Shown here piece after piece: positions 35,601 through 43,883 of a DNA stretch of 50,770 bases; the first letter of the stretch is position 1, and the number at the start of each line of letters is the position of its first letter. The stretch spans positions 1-50,770 of the forward strand of contig NYSX01000068.1 of assembly GCA_002683345.1 (NCBI GenBank), given 5' to 3'. This stretch comes from Flavobacteriales bacterium (GTDB taxonomy: Bacteria; Bacteroidota; Bacteroidia; Flavobacteriales_D; Sanyastnellaceae). The notes below the pieces were generated by a model. It did no database searches and had not been told where the DNA came from. It saw only the letters and a list, made by a program, of their open reading frames with translations. The position numbers and the translations under genes were made by a program.

Positions 35601-36832
35601 TGCATTGGGAGGTTGAGCATGGTTCGGGCACGAGACATGGGGATTTGGGTCTTCCCGTCAAACGCCACCACAAACGCCCCTTCAAATCCTTCCGCGCGTA
35701 GGGCCTTCTTGGCTTCATGCGCTTGGTCGGGGTGGGCGTGGTGGCCCGTCACATACTTGTACAATCCATGACGAATGTAAGGTTTGGCCTCGGAGTGCCC
35801 GCGCAAATCTGGAGAATCTGGGGGCAAGGCCGATTCCGCAGTCAGGATCTGCACGCCAAACCACACCTCGGAGCCCAAGGTGGGGGCGGTTTCGAGGGGG
35901 GCGTTCTCTGCGCTCGCGGTGTCGTCTGCGATTGAAGCATGGCCTTCGACCTGGGCGTTTTCCTCAGTGGGCGCGTGTTCCGAGTTCTCGGTCTCTGCCG
36001 CTTGGCTGTTCGGGTCCGCGGGGGCGACCTGCTCAAGGTCTGAGCGCGAGGCGAGGTAGGTGTCGCGGAAGGCGCGGTAGATGGCCGAGGCCATGTAGGC
36101 TTTGCCGTTTTCGGATTGCAAGAAATCTTCTTCCTCAGGGTTGGTCAAAAAGCCCAATTCCACCAGCGTGCTCGGCATGGTGGTGTAGGAGATGACGTAG
36201 AATCCGGCCTGCTTCACGCCCCGGTCTCGTCTTCCCACGCGCTCCTTGAACTGCTGTTGAATCGCCGCCCCCAGCGTCAAGCTGGCGTCGAGGTTGACGT
36301 TTTGGCGCAGCGAGAGGGCGATGTAGGTGTCGGGGTCATTGGGGTCAAACCCGTCGTAGTTGCGCTCGTAGCCTTCTTCCTTGAACATGGATGCATTCTC
36401 CCGCATCGCTACGCGAAGGCTTTCTTCGCTCTTGTGCATGCCCATGACGTACGTGCTCGAGCCCCGGGCGCCGGCGTTGTCGAAGGCGTCGCAGTGGATG
36501 GACACAAACAAGTCGGCTTGGGCTTCGTTGGCAATCCGAACACGCTCGCGCAGGGCGGGGAAGCTGTCGTCTTTGCGGGTGTAAATGACCTTGACTTCGG
36601 GCAGGTTTTCTTCGATGTAAGCCCCGAGTTGCAGGGTCACATCCAAGGTGATGTCCTTCTCCGTGGTGGTGTAGCGACCCGTTCCGAGATTCCCAGGATC
36701 CTTGCCGCCGTGTCCGGCATCGAGCACCAAGGTCAAGACAGGCGGGGCAGGGGCAAACGCAGCACAGGCGGTCACCAGGGCAACACACGCTGCCATGACG
36801 CGTTGTTTGGCTACTTTTGGACGCTGCTTCAT
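35597..36832 (-). CDS. N-acetylmuramoyl-L-alanine amidase with SPOR-like C-terminus
   Basis: 411 aa from ATG 36832 (MKQRPKVAKQRVMAACVALVTACAAFAP), a signal peptide. The Amidase_3 zinc enzyme covers about 32-245: LVLDAGHGGKDPGN (zinc His), SIHCDAFD (zinc His) and the catalytic Glu in STLVELGFLTNPEEE. A low-complexity Glu/Ala linker follows, then a SPOR-like module (VWFGVQILTAES..GLYKYVTGHHAHPDQAHEAKKALRAEGFEGAFVVAF). It cleaves stem peptides from peptidoglycan. The 59 extra track residues upstream run antisense to lptD. Its start codon shares bases with the earliest possible lptD start (CATG at 36830-36833). Confidence 0.93.
   Translation of the reverse strand: MKQRPKVAKQRVMAACVALVTACAAFAPAPPVLTLVLDAGHGGKDPGNLGTGRYTTTEKDITLDVTLQLGAYIEENLPEVKVIYTRKDDSFPALRERVRIANEAQADLFVSIHCDAFDNAGARGSSTYVMGMHKSEESLRVAMRENASMFKEEGYERNYDGFDPNDPDTYIALSLRQNVNLDASLTLGAAIQQQFKERVGRRDRGVKQAGFYVISYTTMPSTLVELGFLTNPEEEDFLQSENGKAYMASAIYRAFRDTYLASRSDLEQVAPADPNSQAAETENSEHAPTEENAQVEGHASIADDTASAENAPLETAPTLGSEVWFGVQILTAESALPPDSPDLRGHSEAKPYIRHGLYKYVTGHHAHPDQAHEAKKALRAEGFEGAFVVAFDGKTQIPMSRARTMLNLPMQ
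36812..36819 (+). promoter_or_regulatory. -7 promoter box (TACTTTTG) for lptD, inside amidase coding sequence
   Basis: Exact TAnnTTTG match on the plus strand, 11 bases before ATG 36831 or 53 bases before ATG 36873. It lies over early codons of the amidase on the other strand. Confidence 0.45.
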
Positions 36833-36841
36833 GCCGGTTCT

Positions 36842-36849
36842 CAAACATA
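36842..36849 (-). promoter_or_regulatory. -7 promoter box (TATGTTTG) for the amidase operon
   Basis: Exact TAnnTTTG on the minus strand, nine bases before the amidase ATG. It probably drives the seven-gene minus-strand unit. Confidence 0.5.
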
Positions 36850-36872
36850 CCGCACACCCCTGTGGACGCGCG

Positions 36873-39290
36873 ATGCGGGCAGGTTCGATTATCCTTTTTT
36901 GGATGTTGATAAGCCCCGTGTTTTGGGCCCAAACGACCGCACCCGATTCCACCCAAACCGACGACGTGGTCGCCCCGGGGGAGGTGGTGGAATACGACGC
37001 CCAAGACATCTATTTCGCGGTGGACAGCGGGCTGGCGTACCTGACCGGGGAGGCCCAAGTGGTCAGCGGCACGATGACGCTGCGCGCCCACCGCATCGTG
37101 TTGGACCTTGAGGTGGGGGAGGTGTGTGCCTACGGGACGCGAGACAGCACGGGCGCTTGGGTGGGGCGGCCGGAGTTCAAGGATGGTCCCCAATCCTTCA
37201 GCCAGGATCAGCTTTGCTACAACTTCGAAACGGGCAAAGGCCTGAGTCGTCACGCGGTCACCACCGAGCAGGACATCGTTTTCCACGCCGACCGGGCCAA
37301 ACGTCAACCCGACGAAACGGTTCACGTCCGGGACGGAAAGTTCACCACCTGCGACGCCGACAACCCCCACTTTCACTTCCACCTGACCAAGGCCATCATG
37401 GTGCCCAACGAGAAGGTGGTGAGCGGTCCGTTGTACCTGAAATTCCGCAAGATCCCGACGCCGCTGGCCCTGCCTTTTGGGTGGTTCCCATTGCAGCGCG
37501 AGAAGCAGAGTCAAGGGGTTCTCCTTCCGGGCTACGGGGACGGCGGCGACTTGGGCTTCTTCTTGAAGGACCTCGGGTACTACATGCCGCTTGGGGACCA
37601 TTGGGATGCCAAACTCTTGACCGACATCTACACCGGCGGGAGTTGGGCCGCCCGGGTGACCTCGAATTACAACTACCGCTACCGGAGCACTGGATCGTTC
37701 AGCGTGAGTTACCAGCGCCAGCGGGAGGGGTTTGCAGGCACGCCGGGCTTTGGGTTGTCCAACAACTTCTTCGTGCGCTGGAGCCACAGCCAAGACCCTC
37801 GGGCGCGTCCCAACTCGCGCTTCAATGCCTCGGTGAATTTTGGGTCGTCGGGCAACTTCCAGCAAAACTTGAACAGCACCCAAGAGGAGTATTTGTCCAA
37901 CACCTTCCAGTCGAGTTTGCAGTGGACAGCCAAGGTGCCGAGGACGCCTTTTTCGACCAACATCAGTGCGCGGCACAACCAAAATTCGCTGACGGGAAAT
38001 GTGACCTTGACCGTGCCCTCGCTTTCCTTGAACATGCAGCGGACAAGCCTGTCCAAACTCGTGGGATTGGATGCCGGAAAGTCGGCACTCTTGGATGGGG
38101 TGGCCGTCACGTACAGCACCCAAATGGAGAACACCATTCAGGGAGCCGACAGCGCGTTTGGCGCGCAGGATTGGTCAAGTTTGAAAATACGCAATGGACT
38201 GAAGCACAAGTTAAAATTGACTTCCAGTTCAAGTGTTGGTTTTGTTTCTCTGTCTCCATCGTTCACCTACGACCAGTACGATTCCTTCCAGTCATTGGAC
38301 GTGTCGGAGGTGCAGGTGACGGAGGACTCTACGGCCTTTGTGAACGACACGCTTCGGGGATTTCAATCGGCCAATGAATGGCGTTTGGGGGTGACGGCGA
38401 GCACACGCTTTTACGGCACGTTCAACATCCCTGGGGAAGGCCGTGTGAAAGCCGTGCGTCACGTCTTGGCCCCGAGTCTGGGGGTAAGCTACAACCCCGA
38501 GCGAATGCGCGAGCAAAGCTTGGTCACCGATGCGGGGGAGGTGGGGTGGAATCCCTATGCCCTGGGCCGGTACGTGCCCAACGATCTTCGTGAAGCGGGT
38601 TCCTTGAATTTTGGGTTGAGCCAAAACATCGAAGCCAAGGTCGCCGACCGCGAAACGGGGGAGTTGAGGAAGGTGAAGATTTTGGACAACCTGAGCACCT
38701 CGGGGAATTTCAACTTCGTGGCGGATTCCCTGAAGCTTTCGGACTTTCAAACTCGGGCATTCACCAGCCTGTTCAACCGGGTGAATGTCAATGTCAACGC
38801 GACCCACACGGCCTATGCACGCGACACGCTGACGGGCCAGGTCATCGACACCTTCTTGGCGTCTCAAGGCCAAGGATTGGTCCGGTTGAAGCGCGTCACG
38901 GGGGCCATGGGAACAAGCTTCAAGTCTGCCCAGGATGCGGGCACGCCTTGGAACGCGCGGTTGGACTACAACGTCAACTTGTCCCGTCAGTGGGCCTCAG
39001 AGCTGCAAAGGGACACGAGCGTGGTGACGCATGCCTTGAGTGCCCGAGGGAGCGTGAATGTGTTGAAGCGCTACAAATTGGATGTCACCACGGGGTACGA
39101 CTTGGCCCGACGCGAGTTCACGCCGACCAATTTGAACTTCTACGTGGATTTGCATTGCTGGGAGCTGTCGTTCAACTGGATTCCCTTTGGGGTCCGGCAG
39201 AGTTTCTCTCTGCGTTTGAACGTGAAATCGGCCTTGTTGCGCGACCTCAAATTGGAGGCACGAGGGTCCGACGGAAAGCTGCTGTTCTAA
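36873..39290 (+). CDS. lptD: LPS-assembly protein LptD (OstA-like outer-membrane barrel)
   Basis: 805 aa from ATG 36873 (MRAGSIILFWMLISPVFWAQ, a compact signal peptide). ATG 36831 is an alternative that adds 14 residues. The N-terminal OstA-like part (EYDAQDIYFAVDSGLAYLTGEAQVVSGTMTLRAHRIVLDL, then KFTTCDADNPHFHF) is followed by a large barrel of repeated amphipathic strands (YNYRYRSTGSFSVSYQRQ, GSSGNFQQNLNSTQEEYLSNTF). LptD inserts lipopolysaccharide into the outer leaflet. The domain order and the FTTCDxDxPHFHF block match the Bacteroidota LptD group. The gene is divergent from the amidase with interlocked promoters. Confidence 0.9.
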   Translation: MRAGSIILFWMLISPVFWAQTTAPDSTQTDDVVAPGEVVEYDAQDIYFAVDSGLAYLTGEAQVVSGTMTLRAHRIVLDLEVGEVCAYGTRDSTGAWVGRPEFKDGPQSFSQDQLCYNFETGKGLSRHAVTTEQDIVFHADRAKRQPDETVHVRDGKFTTCDADNPHFHFHLTKAIMVPNEKVVSGPLYLKFRKIPTPLALPFGWFPLQREKQSQGVLLPGYGDGGDLGFFLKDLGYYMPLGDHWDAKLLTDIYTGGSWAARVTSNYNYRYRSTGSFSVSYQRQREGFAGTPGFGLSNNFFVRWSHSQDPRARPNSRFNASVNFGSSGNFQQNLNSTQEEYLSNTFQSSLQWTAKVPRTPFSTNISARHNQNSLTGNVTLTVPSLSLNMQRTSLSKLVGLDAGKSALLDGVAVTYSTQMENTIQGADSAFGAQDWSSLKIRNGLKHKLKLTSSSSVGFVSLSPSFTYDQYDSFQSLDVSEVQVTEDSTAFVNDTLRGFQSANEWRLGVTASTRFYGTFNIPGEGRVKAVRHVLAPSLGVSYNPERMREQSLVTDAGEVGWNPYALGRYVPNDLREAGSLNFGLSQNIEAKVADRETGELRKVKILDNLSTSGNFNFVADSLKLSDFQTRAFTSLFNRVNVNVNATHTAYARDTLTGQVIDTFLASQGQGLVRLKRVTGAMGTSFKSAQDAGTPWNARLDYNVNLSRQWASELQRDTSVVTHALSARGSVNVLKRYKLDVTTGYDLARREFTPTNLNFYVDLHCWELSFNWIPFGVRQSFSLRLNVKSALLRDLKLEARGSDGKLLF

Positions 39291-39908: not shown

Positions 39909-40547
39909 ATGCGCATCACCCTCTTCGACAACCACGATTCCTTCACGTGGAACCTTGCCCACGATTTGGGGAGGTTTGGCTGGACGGTGAATGTCGTTCG
40001 AGAAGGCGCGTGGACCGCAGATCACTGGGTCCAAACCGATGCGCTTGTGCTGTCCCCCGGCCCAGGGTTGCCTGAAGAGCACGCCCAATTGATGGACGTC
40101 ACGGCAGAGGCGCTCCGCAGGGGCGTACCGACGTTGGGGGTCTGTTTGGGCATGCAAGCACTCGCAGTGCATGCAGGAGGAACCTTGCGCAACCTCGAGG
40201 CCCCTTTGCACGGCCGTCGATCGGCGATGACCGTGGATGCTGCTGCCGCCACGTGCGGTCCTTTGGGGACCATGTGGGAAGGCTTGGGGCCGTCCATGGA
40301 GGTTGGCCACTACCACAGCTGGGTGGTGGAGGAGGAGTCCCTTCCAGCGGGCTGGCATGTGAACGCCCGCAGCAGTCAGGGTGTGCCCATGGCCATGGGC
40401 CATGAATCCCTTCCCGTTGCGGGCGTCCAATTTCATCCCGAGTCCGTCTTGACGCCCCAAGGGCGTGACTTGCTGCGCGGATGGGGTGAGGCAGCTCAGC
40501 GTTGCTTGGCCATCTCGGCCTCGAACGTCTCCTTGAACTTCTCGTAG
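39909..40547 (+). CDS. Glutamine amidotransferase, anthranilate/aminodeoxychorismate synthase component II (TrpG/PabA type)
   Basis: 212 aa from ATG 39909 (MRITLFDNHDSFTWNLAHDLGRFG). It is a class I glutamine amidotransferase that feeds ammonia to a chorismate-using partner. Motifs are the oxyanion loop LSPGPGLPEE, catalytic Cys in GVCLGMQALAVHAGG, and the His/Glu pair in GVQFHPESVLTPQG. TrpG and PabA cannot be told apart here because no component I gene is adjacent. The expected 'NVSPGP' reads VLSPGPG. The last 52 bases overlap the convergent lipoprotein gene, unusually long for this window. Confidence 0.88.
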   Translation: MRITLFDNHDSFTWNLAHDLGRFGWTVNVVREGAWTADHWVQTDALVLSPGPGLPEEHAQLMDVTAEALRRGVPTLGVCLGMQALAVHAGGTLRNLEAPLHGRRSAMTVDAAAATCGPLGTMWEGLGPSMEVGHYHSWVVEEESLPAGWHVNARSSQGVPMAMGHESLPVAGVQFHPESVLTPQGRDLLRGWGEAAQRCLAISASNVSLNFS

Positions 40548-41059
40548 TTGTACTCAGCCTTGATGCGCTCGTCTTGCGACAGGCGCTCGTTGTACTTGCC
40601 GACCAAATCGGTGGCGGACAACTCCACAGCCATGTAGCTGACAAAGGTGCCGTCGGTTTTTTGGGTCAAACGCTGGCAGGCGGTGATGGCGCCGGACAGG
40701 AGCTGGTCCACCACGGTGCGTGCCAAATCGTTGAAGGTCTCGGTGACCTCCTCCACGTTGTTGAACTTGGTGCTGTTCACGTAGTTGTCGGTCACAATTT
40801 CAATGGTGGCGTTGATGGAACGGGCAAGCTTGGCTTCGGCATTGGATCGCGCCATTTTCTTGGCAGTTTCCCGGCTCATGCTCTGGCCTGTGGCCGAAGC
40901 GCGGAAGTGGTTCTTGTCGCTCTTGTACTCGTCGCTGGCACAGTACTCGAGGATTTCGATCTCACCGGCCTGCTTGGGGGTCATGCTCTTGTTGCTGCAG
41001 CCTGTCATGGCTGCGGTGGCCACAATCAAGGCCAAAGGAAGGGTGATGCGAAGGTTCAT
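40496..41059 (-). CDS. LPP20-like lipoprotein (small)
   Basis: 187 aa. The signal peptide MNLRITLPLALIVATAAMTGCSN carries lipobox MTGC. The mature part follows the LPP20/FlgP pattern: FRASATGQSMSRETAKKMARSNAEAKLARSINATIEIVTDNYVN, then TFNDLARTVVDQLLSGAITACQRLTQ and VSYMAVELS. It is the third gene of a three-lipoprotein run after the CsgG/TPR and larger LPP20 genes. A TACTTTTC box 18 bases upstream hints at an extra promoter. It is probably anchored to the outer membrane. Function is unknown. The 3' end overlaps the amidotransferase gene by 52 bases. Confidence 0.78.
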   Translation of the reverse strand: MNLRITLPLALIVATAAMTGCSNKSMTPKQAGEIEILEYCASDEYKSDKNHFRASATGQSMSRETAKKMARSNAEAKLARSINATIEIVTDNYVNSTKFNNVEEVTETFNDLARTVVDQLLSGAITACQRLTQKTDGTFVSYMAVELSATDLVGKYNERLSQDERIKAEYNYEKFKETFEAEMAKQR

Positions 41060-41077
41060 GGAGGTGGGGTTTGTGTC

Positions 41078-41085
41078 GAAAAGTA
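41078..41085 (-). promoter_or_regulatory. Possible internal -7 box for the small LPP20 gene
   Basis: The minus strand reads TACTTTTC, one change from TAnnTTTG, 18 bases before the ATG and within the 45-base gap of the lipoprotein run. Confidence 0.25.
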
Positions 41086-41104
41086 AAGATTTTCTCAGTC
41101 AGTT

Positions 41105-42475
41105 TCAGAAACCGTGCCAAAGTCGAATCAAGGCAGGGACAAAGTCGGAGGTGATTTCCTCAGAAGCCTTGCTGTACGCAGCGTCCGTGGCCCGAGGCAA
41201 GTCGAGTTGGATGCCTTTGATGCGGGTCAGGGTTTGGGTGAAAAGGACCTCACCTTCACGGTTGGTGACCGTGCCCACCACGTCGGTGTACACGGTGGTG
41301 AATCCCTGTCCGCTGCCGCCGGGCCGGGCGTCGGCTTCCACAGTCAAAATCATGTCGGCATCGGCATCTGTCGCTAGGAGAGAGACGTTGGCCGATTGGA
41401 GGGCTTGTTGGATGGCAGGCGCAAGCATCGCTTGGTCGCGTTTCTTCCCAAACGCCCGCTCTTCGATGCGCAATGACACTTCAATGGGGGCCAAGGTTAC
41501 CTCCACGCGAAGGGGGACGCTTTGCAGTCCCTCCGCGGCTTGTCGGAAGGGGTGCATGAGGGGAAGTCCTTGCACAAAAGCCTTGGGCTCCACGCGAACT
41601 TCGAGGGCCGTGCCACGCTTCCCAGGTTCAAATTTCTCGAGCGTGATGGTCGCCTCGCCCTGGGCGTTGGTGACGGCCTCGCCCCGCGTGGGGAACTCGC
41701 CCCGGTTGTAGCGGTACGACAACGTCACGTTGGGGGCGGGCTTGCCGTCGAGCAGCGCCGTCACGACCACGTCGCCGCGGAAGGCGTCCCTCACGTTCAA
41801 CGTGACGGAAGAGTCGGCGCTCGCCAATTGAAGTCCGGCCACACAATCGTCGAGCAAGCCGACCAATTCGAGGGGGACGGAAGTCTCCGTTCCGTCTGCC
41901 CCCACGTGAACCAGAGGCTTGTCTAAGAAGGGGCGGAGTGCGTCCAACCCACGGACTGCTGCATCCACGACTTGTTGCACTTGCGCAAGGCCACGTGCGG
42001 CGCGCGCCGTTTCAAGGTGCTCCATCGACAGGGCCAGTGCGGCTTGTCTTTTGGCCTCTTGGATGCGTGCGTGCTCGGCCTTGCTCAGCTGGTAGTACAC
42101 CATGACCTCGGTTTCCGTGGCGTACGTGTCCACCAAGGTGAAGCCCTCCAAATCTTCCTTGGTGGTGCTTTCAGACGAAAAATTGAACGACTCTGAGAGC
42201 CAATCGTTGACCTGAAGGGTCTTGGTGGTCGAGGTGGACTTCACCTGCACCCGAATCTCGCGAGAGAGGTTGTCCAAGGCTTGTTGTTTGGCCACGGCGT
42301 CTGCGTCCAGCGGGTGGACAAGCTTCGAGGCCGAGCCGATGCCGATGTAGTACCCTGCCTTGACTGGGGACTCAAAGGTCCAGCTTGGTGCAGGCGCCAC
42401 CGCCGTGCGGGAACCCGCACATCCGGCCAACGTCGCCAAACACAAAACACCAGCAAAGAGGGATGTCAATCGCAT
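41105..42475 (-). CDS. LPP20-family lipoprotein (large, multi-domain)
   Basis: 456 aa. Lipoprotein signal MRLTSLFAGVLCLATLAGCAGS with lipobox LAGC. Residues 30-150 are the LPP20-like module (GYYIGIGSASKLVHPLDADAVAKQQALDNLSREIRVQVKSTSTTK). Residues about 215-290 look like a carboxypeptidase-regulatory or Ig-like beta domain (VVTALLDGKPAPNVTLSYRYN..TRGEAVTNAQGEATITL). The last part (DADADMILTVEADARPGG..VYTDVVGTVTNREGEVLF) recalls the FlgO/CsgG-type fold. It follows the CsgG/TPR gene by four bases, so the two are translated together. Domain assignments beyond LPP20 are inference. Confidence 0.75.
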   Translation of the reverse strand: MRLTSLFAGVLCLATLAGCAGSRTAVAPAPSWTFESPVKAGYYIGIGSASKLVHPLDADAVAKQQALDNLSREIRVQVKSTSTTKTLQVNDWLSESFNFSSESTTKEDLEGFTLVDTYATETEVMVYYQLSKAEHARIQEAKRQAALALSMEHLETARAARGLAQVQQVVDAAVRGLDALRPFLDKPLVHVGADGTETSVPLELVGLLDDCVAGLQLASADSSVTLNVRDAFRGDVVVTALLDGKPAPNVTLSYRYNRGEFPTRGEAVTNAQGEATITLEKFEPGKRGTALEVRVEPKAFVQGLPLMHPFRQAAEGLQSVPLRVEVTLAPIEVSLRIEERAFGKKRDQAMLAPAIQQALQSANVSLLATDADADMILTVEADARPGGSGQGFTTVYTDVVGTVTNREGEVLFTQTLTRIKGIQLDLPRATDAAYSKASEEITSDFVPALIRLWHGF

Positions 42476-42479
42476 GAAA

Positions 42480-43883
42480 TCAGGGGACGAGGGTGAGCAA
42501 TTCTTGTTCGATGGCGCGTTGGATTTGCGACGCCAAGGCCAGGCCGGCTTCGTCGGTCAACGCGTCGGCACTGCGGATGGCTTGGCGTGCGGACAGCAAG
42601 CGATCTCGGTCTGCACGGCCTGAAGAGCCGGTGCGCGCACCGGAGTGACCGCCGAGGTAGAATTTGTTGCGGTTGCCGCCGTACGTGATGTAGCGGATGT
42701 TGTCTGAGGCCCGACCGTAGAGGGTGTTGGAGGACACCACTTCCCCCGTGGTGGTGGAAATGAACTTGAAGGTGCAGGTGATGTCGATGGACGCGTCTTG
42801 CGAGAACTCGCGGTACTGCACTTGACGGTATTTGGTCTCGTAGTACTTCTTGCCCTCTTCGTTCACGCGCTCCACTTTGTATTGCTCGTAGCCCGTTTGG
42901 TAGCTCGACATCAAGCGCGTCTGACGGTGGTCGCAGGTGGTGATGGTGGCCTTGAGCAAGGCCTTGGCGCCAAGCATGTTGCCGATTTCCACGTCGCCGC
43001 CAGAAGTTAGGCCGCTCATGCCCATGCTTTGTTCTTGGAGGATCAAGGCCAAACTCTCCCGGTCCACCACCTTCAAGAAGGGGTCTTCCGAGCCCATCAG
43101 CGCTTGCTCAACAAGGGACTGGATTTTGACATCGAGGTTCAAACGGCTCGAACCGTTTTTGAAGTCCACGAGTGCCACAGTGAAGCGTCCTTCTTCCAGC
43201 ACGTCACTCAGGCGCTGGCTTGCGTCCTTGTAATCGGGGTCCGTGTTGGTCAATTCGGAAAGCGCAGCGTGGGCCTCGCGGTAACGTTCGCCCTCTTGGG
43301 CCTTCACGCCTGCGCGGTAGCGGGGCTCGCAGAAGGCCACGTTGCGCAGGGCAGGGGCGTCCTGGTACGTGGGGTCCAATTGGAGGATGGCGTCAAATTC
43401 GGCCAGCGCCTCGTCGAACATCTCCTGTTCGAGCAAGATGTTGGCTTGACGGTAGGATTCGTCGAGGTGGGCGTTTTTGACCGTCTCGTACATCGCACGC
43501 TTGGCTTCAGGGAAGGCCAAATCCACGCCGACCGCCTCGAGTTTGGCGTCCCACGCTTCGGCGTCGTGCCACGCGTCCAGCGCGGTTTCGCGCATGTTGT
43601 ACGCCACGGCTTCGTCAAAGGCGGCGATGTGCTGACCCAAAACGACCTGTCCGGTGCGCTTCAGTCCGACCATCGCATCGATGTTGGAGGGCTTCTTCAC
43701 CACCGCGGTGTAGTAGAGGTTGGCCGCTTGGGGCATCATGCCCGCTTCTTCCATTTTGGCACCGCGTTTCACAAAGGCTTTGGAACCGTTGCAAGCGGGG
43801 AGTGCACCTAGGAGGATCAACGCGAGAAGGCCGAGGGCAAATCGGCGGAGTGTGGGGTGAATGAATGTGGTCATGACATGCAT
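42480..43883 (-). CDS. CsgG/HfaB-like lipoprotein with N-terminal TPR-type repeats
   Basis: 467 aa. The signal MHVMTTFIHPTLRRFALGLLALILLGALPACNG has lipobox LPAC (ATG 43874 is an alternative). Residues about 35-225 are helical TPR-like repeats (KMEEAGMMPQAANLYYTAVVKKP, MFDEALAEFDAILQLDPTYQDA, ERYREAHAALSELTNTDPDYKDA). Residues about 235-410 are a CsgG domain (FTVALVDFKNGSS, FLKVVDRESLALILQEQSMGMSGL, IGNMLGAKALLKATITTCD). CsgG proteins form secretion rings in the outer membrane. A Gly/Ser/Arg-rich loop (YLGGHSGARTGSSGRADRD) lies near the end. It is the first gene of the three-lipoprotein run, with a TACCTTCG box upstream. Confidence 0.8.
   Translation of the reverse strand: MHVMTTFIHPTLRRFALGLLALILLGALPACNGSKAFVKRGAKMEEAGMMPQAANLYYTAVVKKPSNIDAMVGLKRTGQVVLGQHIAAFDEAVAYNMRETALDAWHDAEAWDAKLEAVGVDLAFPEAKRAMYETVKNAHLDESYRQANILLEQEMFDEALAEFDAILQLDPTYQDAPALRNVAFCEPRYRAGVKAQEGERYREAHAALSELTNTDPDYKDASQRLSDVLEEGRFTVALVDFKNGSSRLNLDVKIQSLVEQALMGSEDPFLKVVDRESLALILQEQSMGMSGLTSGGDVEIGNMLGAKALLKATITTCDHRQTRLMSSYQTGYEQYKVERVNEEGKKYYETKYRQVQYREFSQDASIDITCTFKFISTTTGEVVSSNTLYGRASDNIRYITYGGNRNKFYLGGHSGARTGSSGRADRDRLLSARQAIRSADALTDEAGLALASQIQRAIEQELLTLVP

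Follow-up and report, generated by a model that had tools for sequence, protein, structure and literature searches.

A co-inherited operon of CsgG- and LPP20-type lipoprotein genes in Flavobacteriales, found apart from curli and flagellar genes

Three adjacent lipoprotein genes are under purifying selection

The window analyzed here, a 50,770-base contig from a 1.85 Mb draft genome that is 73% complete, carries three genes on the minus strand between positions 40496 and 43883, which we call P1, P2 and P3 and which are separated by intergenic gaps of 4 and 45 bp (Table 1). The signal peptides of the encoded proteins end at a lipobox-type cysteine (C31, C19 and C21, respectively), which is invariant in the alignment of the respective family. 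The open reading frames, their spacing and the lipobox cysteines confirm the three tightly spaced lipoprotein genes described in a first-pass annotation of the sequence. All three genes are under purifying selection, with dN/dS values (Nei-Gojobori, against two relatives) of 0.10 and 0.15 for P1, 0.10 and 0.14 for P2, and 0.06 and 0.14 for P3. Values of 0.06-0.15 mark the three as functional genes, in contrast to the chance ORFs of GC-rich DNA that are numerous on the opposite strand.

Table 1. Genes, predicted domains and conserved cysteine codons of the operon, with positions in the window.
Feature	Position	Strand	Description and evidence
P1	42480..43883	-	467-aa TPR-CsgG-domain lipoprotein; Pfam CsgG and TPR, AlphaFold, Foldseek, dN/dS
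P1 helical TPR solenoid, residues 34-231	43191..43784	-	Predicted helices H34-46 to H221-231; TPR_19 and TPR_2 matches
P1 CsgG-type α/β domain, residues 234-465	42489..43184	-	Pfam, AlphaFold, Foldseek; aligned with low probability to residues 80-190 of E. coli CsgG
P1 very long β-hairpin, residues 308-376	42756..42962	-	Predicted strands 308-321, 325-340 and 346-376; place of the CsgG TM1 hairpin; distal half polar
P2	41105..42475	-	456-aa three-domain LPP20 lipoprotein; Pfam LPP20, AlphaFold
P2 LPP20 domain, residues 30-130	42086..42388	-	Pfam; profile match to HP1454 (4kzs), E=5e-4
P2 Ig/macroglobulin-like domain, about residues 223-295	41591..41809	-	Sub-threshold bMG3/Big_1 matches, β strands, C5 MG4 match
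P2 C-terminal α/β domain, about residues 322-453	41117..41512	-	LptE/GNA1162-like fold; secondary structure, Foldseek
P3	40496..41059	-	187-aa short LPP20-like lipoprotein, best conserved of the trio
P3 Cys40 codon	40940..40942	-	Likely disulphide partner; invariant in 19 orthologues, lost jointly with Cys128 in paralogues
P3 Cys128 codon	40676..40678	-	Likely disulphide partner; invariant in orthologues, lost jointly with Cys40 in paralogues

P1 combines a TPR solenoid with a predicted CsgG-type domain

The Pfam CsgG model matched P1 above its gathering cut-off (E=2.6e-8) and TPR models matched as well, in line with the TPR-CsgG protein named in the first-pass annotation. CsgG also matched all 21 P1 homologues, 11 of which were additionally matched by LpoB. 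The AlphaFold model of P1 has a mean pLDDT of 90.5, and its top Foldseek matches were CsgG (4uv2, 1.5e-5), with HpaA, GNA1162, CT253, FlgT (3w1e), one chain of an LPHT ring of the Vibrio type (8z5n) and PelC at lower ranks; TM-scores of the CsgG-type matches were moderate (target-normalised about 0.3-0.57). The C-terminal half of P1 is thus predicted with good confidence to belong to the CsgG/PelC/GNA1162/FlgT fold group. A CsgG fold in the 467-aa protein had been set beforehand as a check, which the confident prediction passes, and a likeness to FlgO/FlgP/FlgT had been suggested, to which the FlgT and LPHT-ring matches lend support. Single-sequence hhalign comparisons of P1 with E. coli CsgG and LpoB gave low probabilities, and the CsgG assignment is made because of the Pfam and fold searches. 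Direct sequence searches of PDB chains with P1, P3 and a set of distant P3 sequences returned TPR or chance matches only.

The long hairpin of the CsgG-type domain allowed a comparison with the membrane-spanning parts of the curli pore. Columns in its distal half are 17-43% charged and both of its faces are 36-40% apolar. In the transmembrane segments of E. coli CsgG, the limits of which we take from general knowledge, the more apolar face reaches 73-77%. A distal hairpin that is charged and without an apolar face makes a curli-type channel unlikely, and the earlier idea that the operon might encode a channel is weakened, as a hairpin this polar seems unsuited to crossing a membrane. From its sequence, we read it as probably staying in the aqueous periplasm, comparable to the hairpin insert of FlgP rings or to PelC. 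In FlgP rings, the hairpin insert makes a continuous β-sheet (PMC12222027).

Phylum-wide, P1 is rare at E<=1e-10, with 17 of 297 genomes giving matches, most of them partial. A second family of TPR-CsgG lipoproteins, ~25% identical to P1, occurs without P2 or P3 (L071 5979-7343, L216 5621-7054, L225 5925-7340 and L226 5822-7165) and in several members adjoins a conserved coaE-like gene.

P2 is an LPP20 protein and P3 is LPP20-like

LPP20 (PF02169) matched P2 at E=8.5e-10 (39.4 bits versus a gathering score of 25.9) as well as all 21 P2 homologues, which bears out its earlier description as a multi-domain LPP20 protein. The AlphaFold model of P2 (pLDDT 86.6) comprises the LPP20 part, a strand-rich middle and a C-terminal α/β domain, an overall fold that is predicted with good confidence. 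LptE chains were on top of the Foldseek matches, which also included Cj1090c, HP1454 and GNA1162; judging from alignment length and topology, the LptE, Cj1090c and GNA1162 matches probably fall on the C-terminal domain. Segment 78-105 of P2, modelled with low confidence, follows the SHS2 helix and precedes the second strand, and P3 appears from the alignment to carry a comparable segment. In the FlgP family, ring formation has been linked to an insertion at this place (PMC12222027). A P2-like protein of 636 aa found elsewhere (L223 5818-7725, G020:C22; E=1e-72) has a C-terminal half foreign to the P2 family.

For P3, the description as a short LPP20 protein held in part. The window copy itself had no Pfam LPP20 match, while 11 of 19 P3 homologues were matched weakly (best 1.7e-3) and distant relatives at up to 2.9e-8. 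In profile-profile comparison, P3 aligned to the LPP20 region of P2 with 95-97% probability, in an alignment that takes in the signal peptides. The label LPP20-like, as applied to P3, therefore reflects its relatives and not a direct match of the window copy. Because C40 and C128 are invariant in P3 orthologues and absent together in paralogues, they probably form a disulphide. One such paralogue, 24% identical to P3 and without the cysteine pair, lies on another contig of the window's own genome (L198 6876-7427, G000:C62), and most operon-bearing relatives have a second P3 copy.

The three genes are inherited together

In a set of 60 related genomes, P1 was found in 45, P2 in 45 and P3 in 46. 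The genomes concerned were the same for each gene, with the sole exception of G006, where a contig edge holds part of P3. All three genes were present in 32 and absent from 12 of the 44 genomes that are near-complete and clean. An exact match of two such sets has a probability of ~5e-11 if the genomes are taken as independent, and kinship makes the true figure much less extreme. The order P1-P2-P3 was constant wherever all were present (40 larger loci), the genes adjoin one another in nearly all loci, and P1 and P2 overlap by 1 bp in many relatives. P1, P2 and P3 are strictly co-inherited across a large Flavobacteriales group, and the co-occurrence of the genes in relatives, also set beforehand as a check, proved to be all-or-none in near-complete genomes.

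Searching the GTDB species genomes for P3 gave 371 relatives, the best 80 of which were compared. Nearly all of these 80 are titled as Flavobacteriales, Crocinitomicaceae, Cryomorphaceae or Bacteroidetes MAGs, together with several 'Chryseobacterium gleum' entries, a name that we take as a placeholder. The full trio was present in 64 of the 80 loci, and 11 of the remaining 16 are cut by contig ends, as read from coordinates. P3 was found without P1 or P2 within the available sequence in L143, L145, L149 and L150, and P2 was altered in L146. In L121, L124 and L128, P3 is inverted yet still adjoins P2-P1. Two genomes of another family of the class (G106 and G203) have P2 and P3 together, with P1 missing. 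Some relatives thus have P3 alone or a P2-P3 pair but no P1, so that the full set is not required in every case.

Genes beside the operon

In 17 compared loci, the gene immediately upstream of P1, on its strand, encodes a protein that ends in DUF4476 (cluster c7), and of the 64 complete GTDB loci 29 have this gene upstream, as identified by Pfam. It is missing from this place in the window's genus, although a DUF4476 protein is encoded at another site of the window's genome (G000:C32). In L146 (2235-3788), a P2-type LPP20 protein that adjoins P3 ends in DUF4476, which replaces the usual C-terminal domain. This fusion suggests that DUF4476 works together with P2. The upstream flank, with saccharopine dehydrogenase and IspH, is conserved too in many loci, and part of the synteny of the operon is therefore regional.

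On the other side, an LptD-like outer membrane protein is encoded at 36702-39290 of the window (LptD_2, 4e-123), 1.2 kb from P3; the LptD gene cluster (c8) occurs in 13 compared sequences, and in most other loci LptD does not adjoin the operon. Among the compared loci, neither a recurrent substrate gene nor a conserved peptidoglycan gene was found beside the operon, and no conserved PelB-like barrel gene was noticed there. In one distant relative (L217 6171-8742), a P3-like gene and a weakly P2-like gene are followed by a lytic transglycosylase gene (SLT, with an MltC N-terminal match), which could hint at a connection with peptidoglycan.

Relation to characterized envelope systems

CsgF, curlin repeats (Curlin_rpt) and flagellin (Flagellin_N) were not found in any of the 60 relatives, including the window's genome as a 73%-complete draft, consistent with the earlier statement that flagellar and curli genes are lacking. 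We rejected curli (type VIII) secretion, for which the CsgG domain is present but CsgF and curlin repeats gave no match in the 60 genomes. Hairpins of the curli membrane-spanning type were also set aside as improbable on sequence grounds, given that a long hairpin is present in P1 but its distal half is polar on both faces. P1 shares with E. coli CsgG the α/β domain, the lipoprotein anchor and a hairpin at the TM1 position; it differs in having an N-terminal TPR solenoid and in the length and polarity of the hairpin. PF03783 is a broad superfamily, in which true curli CsgG made up 171 of 601 matches in one survey (PMC3521004).

PF13036 (LpoB) matches are seen in half of the P1 homologues (11 of 21) but not in the window copy, and LpoB has no TPR or long hairpin. 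UB2H is the domain of PBP1b that LpoB binds. In the 60 relatives, UB2H gave no match over the cut-off, with sub-threshold matches in nine genomes, and an LpoB with a UB2H partner synthase was rejected on these grounds. P2 as the LptE of its genome was rejected as well: P2 has no PF04390 match, and a separate PF04390 protein is encoded at G000:C78. LptE (PF04390) is a separate protein in 57 of the 60 relatives, operon-less genomes included.

The flagellar ring proper, that is the H-ring of FlgO, FlgP and FlgT, was discarded, as Flagellin_N gave no match in the 60 genomes. The operon resembles the H-ring and basal disk in encoding several envelope proteins with predicted CsgG/TolB-like and LPP20/SHS2 folds, but P1, P2 and P3 add TPR, Ig-like and LptE-like domains and no flagellin was found in the 60 relatives. 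PelC is a lipoprotein that assembles into a periplasmic ring of 12 subunits at the outer membrane, and this ring holds PelB by its TPR domains (PMC12141448). P1 matches PelC in Foldseek through a CsgG-like fold, but carries its TPR on the same polypeptide as the CsgG-type domain. The HP1454/HP1456 (Lpp20) operon of H. pylori resembles the present one in pairing a short LPP20 protein with one of several domains (4kzs), to which P2 gave a match, but in H. pylori these proteins bind accessories of the flagellum (PMC11756786). HP1456, which is structurally near FlgP and FlgT, was found not to be the outer disk, and its deletion had no effect on motility, on resistance to bacitracin or on the outer disk of the flagellum (PMC11756786), so LPP20 proteins are not always ring formers. 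As far as sequence comparison can tell, the operon encodes neither a curli system, a flagellar ring nor the LPS translocon, and probably no LpoB pair, and it shares folds with all of these.

Discussion

We tentatively propose, as the best of the explanations weighed, that P1, P2 and P3 make up a periplasmic complex tethered to the outer membrane, a scaffold that would probably be a ring or patch and not a curli-type pore. The CsgG/PelC/FlgT-type domain of P1, with its long polar hairpin, would probably oligomerise and the TPR solenoid of P1 would dock a client, while P2 and P3 would contribute LPP20 (SHS2-like) domains, the kind that builds FlgP and FlgT rings. The scaffold could then stabilise the outer membrane itself or some envelope machine at that site. 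We infer that the three proteins bind one another, form a ring and face the periplasm, and the same holds for any function of the complex. A more specific version, in which a lipoprotein ring independent of flagellum and curli sits at the Flavobacteriales outer membrane as a stand-alone relative of the H-ring or basal disk and holds an envelope machine or the outer membrane-peptidoglycan interface, strikes us as rather doubtful.

Several other explanations were weighed. One is that P1 works as a secretion channel of the CsgG type in the outer membrane, assisted by the lipoproteins P2 and P3 and serving a substrate other than curlin. CsgG chains are the best Foldseek matches of P1 and the hairpin occupies the TM1 position, but the charge and missing apolar face of its distal half, the finding of CsgF and curlin repeats in 0 of 60 genomes and the lack of a candidate substrate gene recurring beside the operon make such a channel improbable. 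That P1 is an LpoB-like regulator which, with P2 and P3 as its co-factors, activates a synthase on the far side of the peptidoglycan, would fit the LpoB matches in 11 of 21 homologues (best 9.8e-7), the lytic transglycosylase gene beside the P3-like and weakly P2-like genes of the distant relative and the reported action of TPR lipoproteins such as NlpI on peptidoglycan enzymes (PMC7049810). We nevertheless give this explanation a low probability, with only sub-threshold UB2H matches in nine of the 60 relatives, no TPRs or long hairpin in E. coli LpoB and no peptidoglycan gene conserved beside the operon.

A part for P2 in LPS export, to which its LptE-like C-terminal fold and the nearby LptD-family gene, with cluster c8 in 13 compared sequences, could point, appears very unlikely: a separate LptE is present in nearly all relatives even where the operon is absent, LptD is not beside the operon in most other loci, and the α/β fold of P2 is common to many lipoproteins. 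The proteins might also be functionally separate, their genes kept together by slow operon turnover alone. The conserved saccharopine dehydrogenase/IspH flank fits with this explanation, but the all-or-none presence (32 of 44 near-complete genomes) holds where flanks differ and an inverted P3 still adjoins P2-P1 in three loci, and we think it improbable.

No published description of the operon was found in the literature searched, and the designation as an undescribed system in the first-pass annotation stands to that extent; the domains are already known, and their combination and setting are new. Should the three proteins form no ring, the operon is still a strictly co-inherited envelope gene set, for which the literature searched gave no published role. 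If the proposed scaffold is indeed a ring, parts of the H-ring, the basal disk and the curli pore would be shown to function on their own, too, in bacteria lacking both organelles. This would bear on how such rings were recruited to flagella, and would give a function to a lipoprotein operon of much of the uncultured Flavobacteriales.
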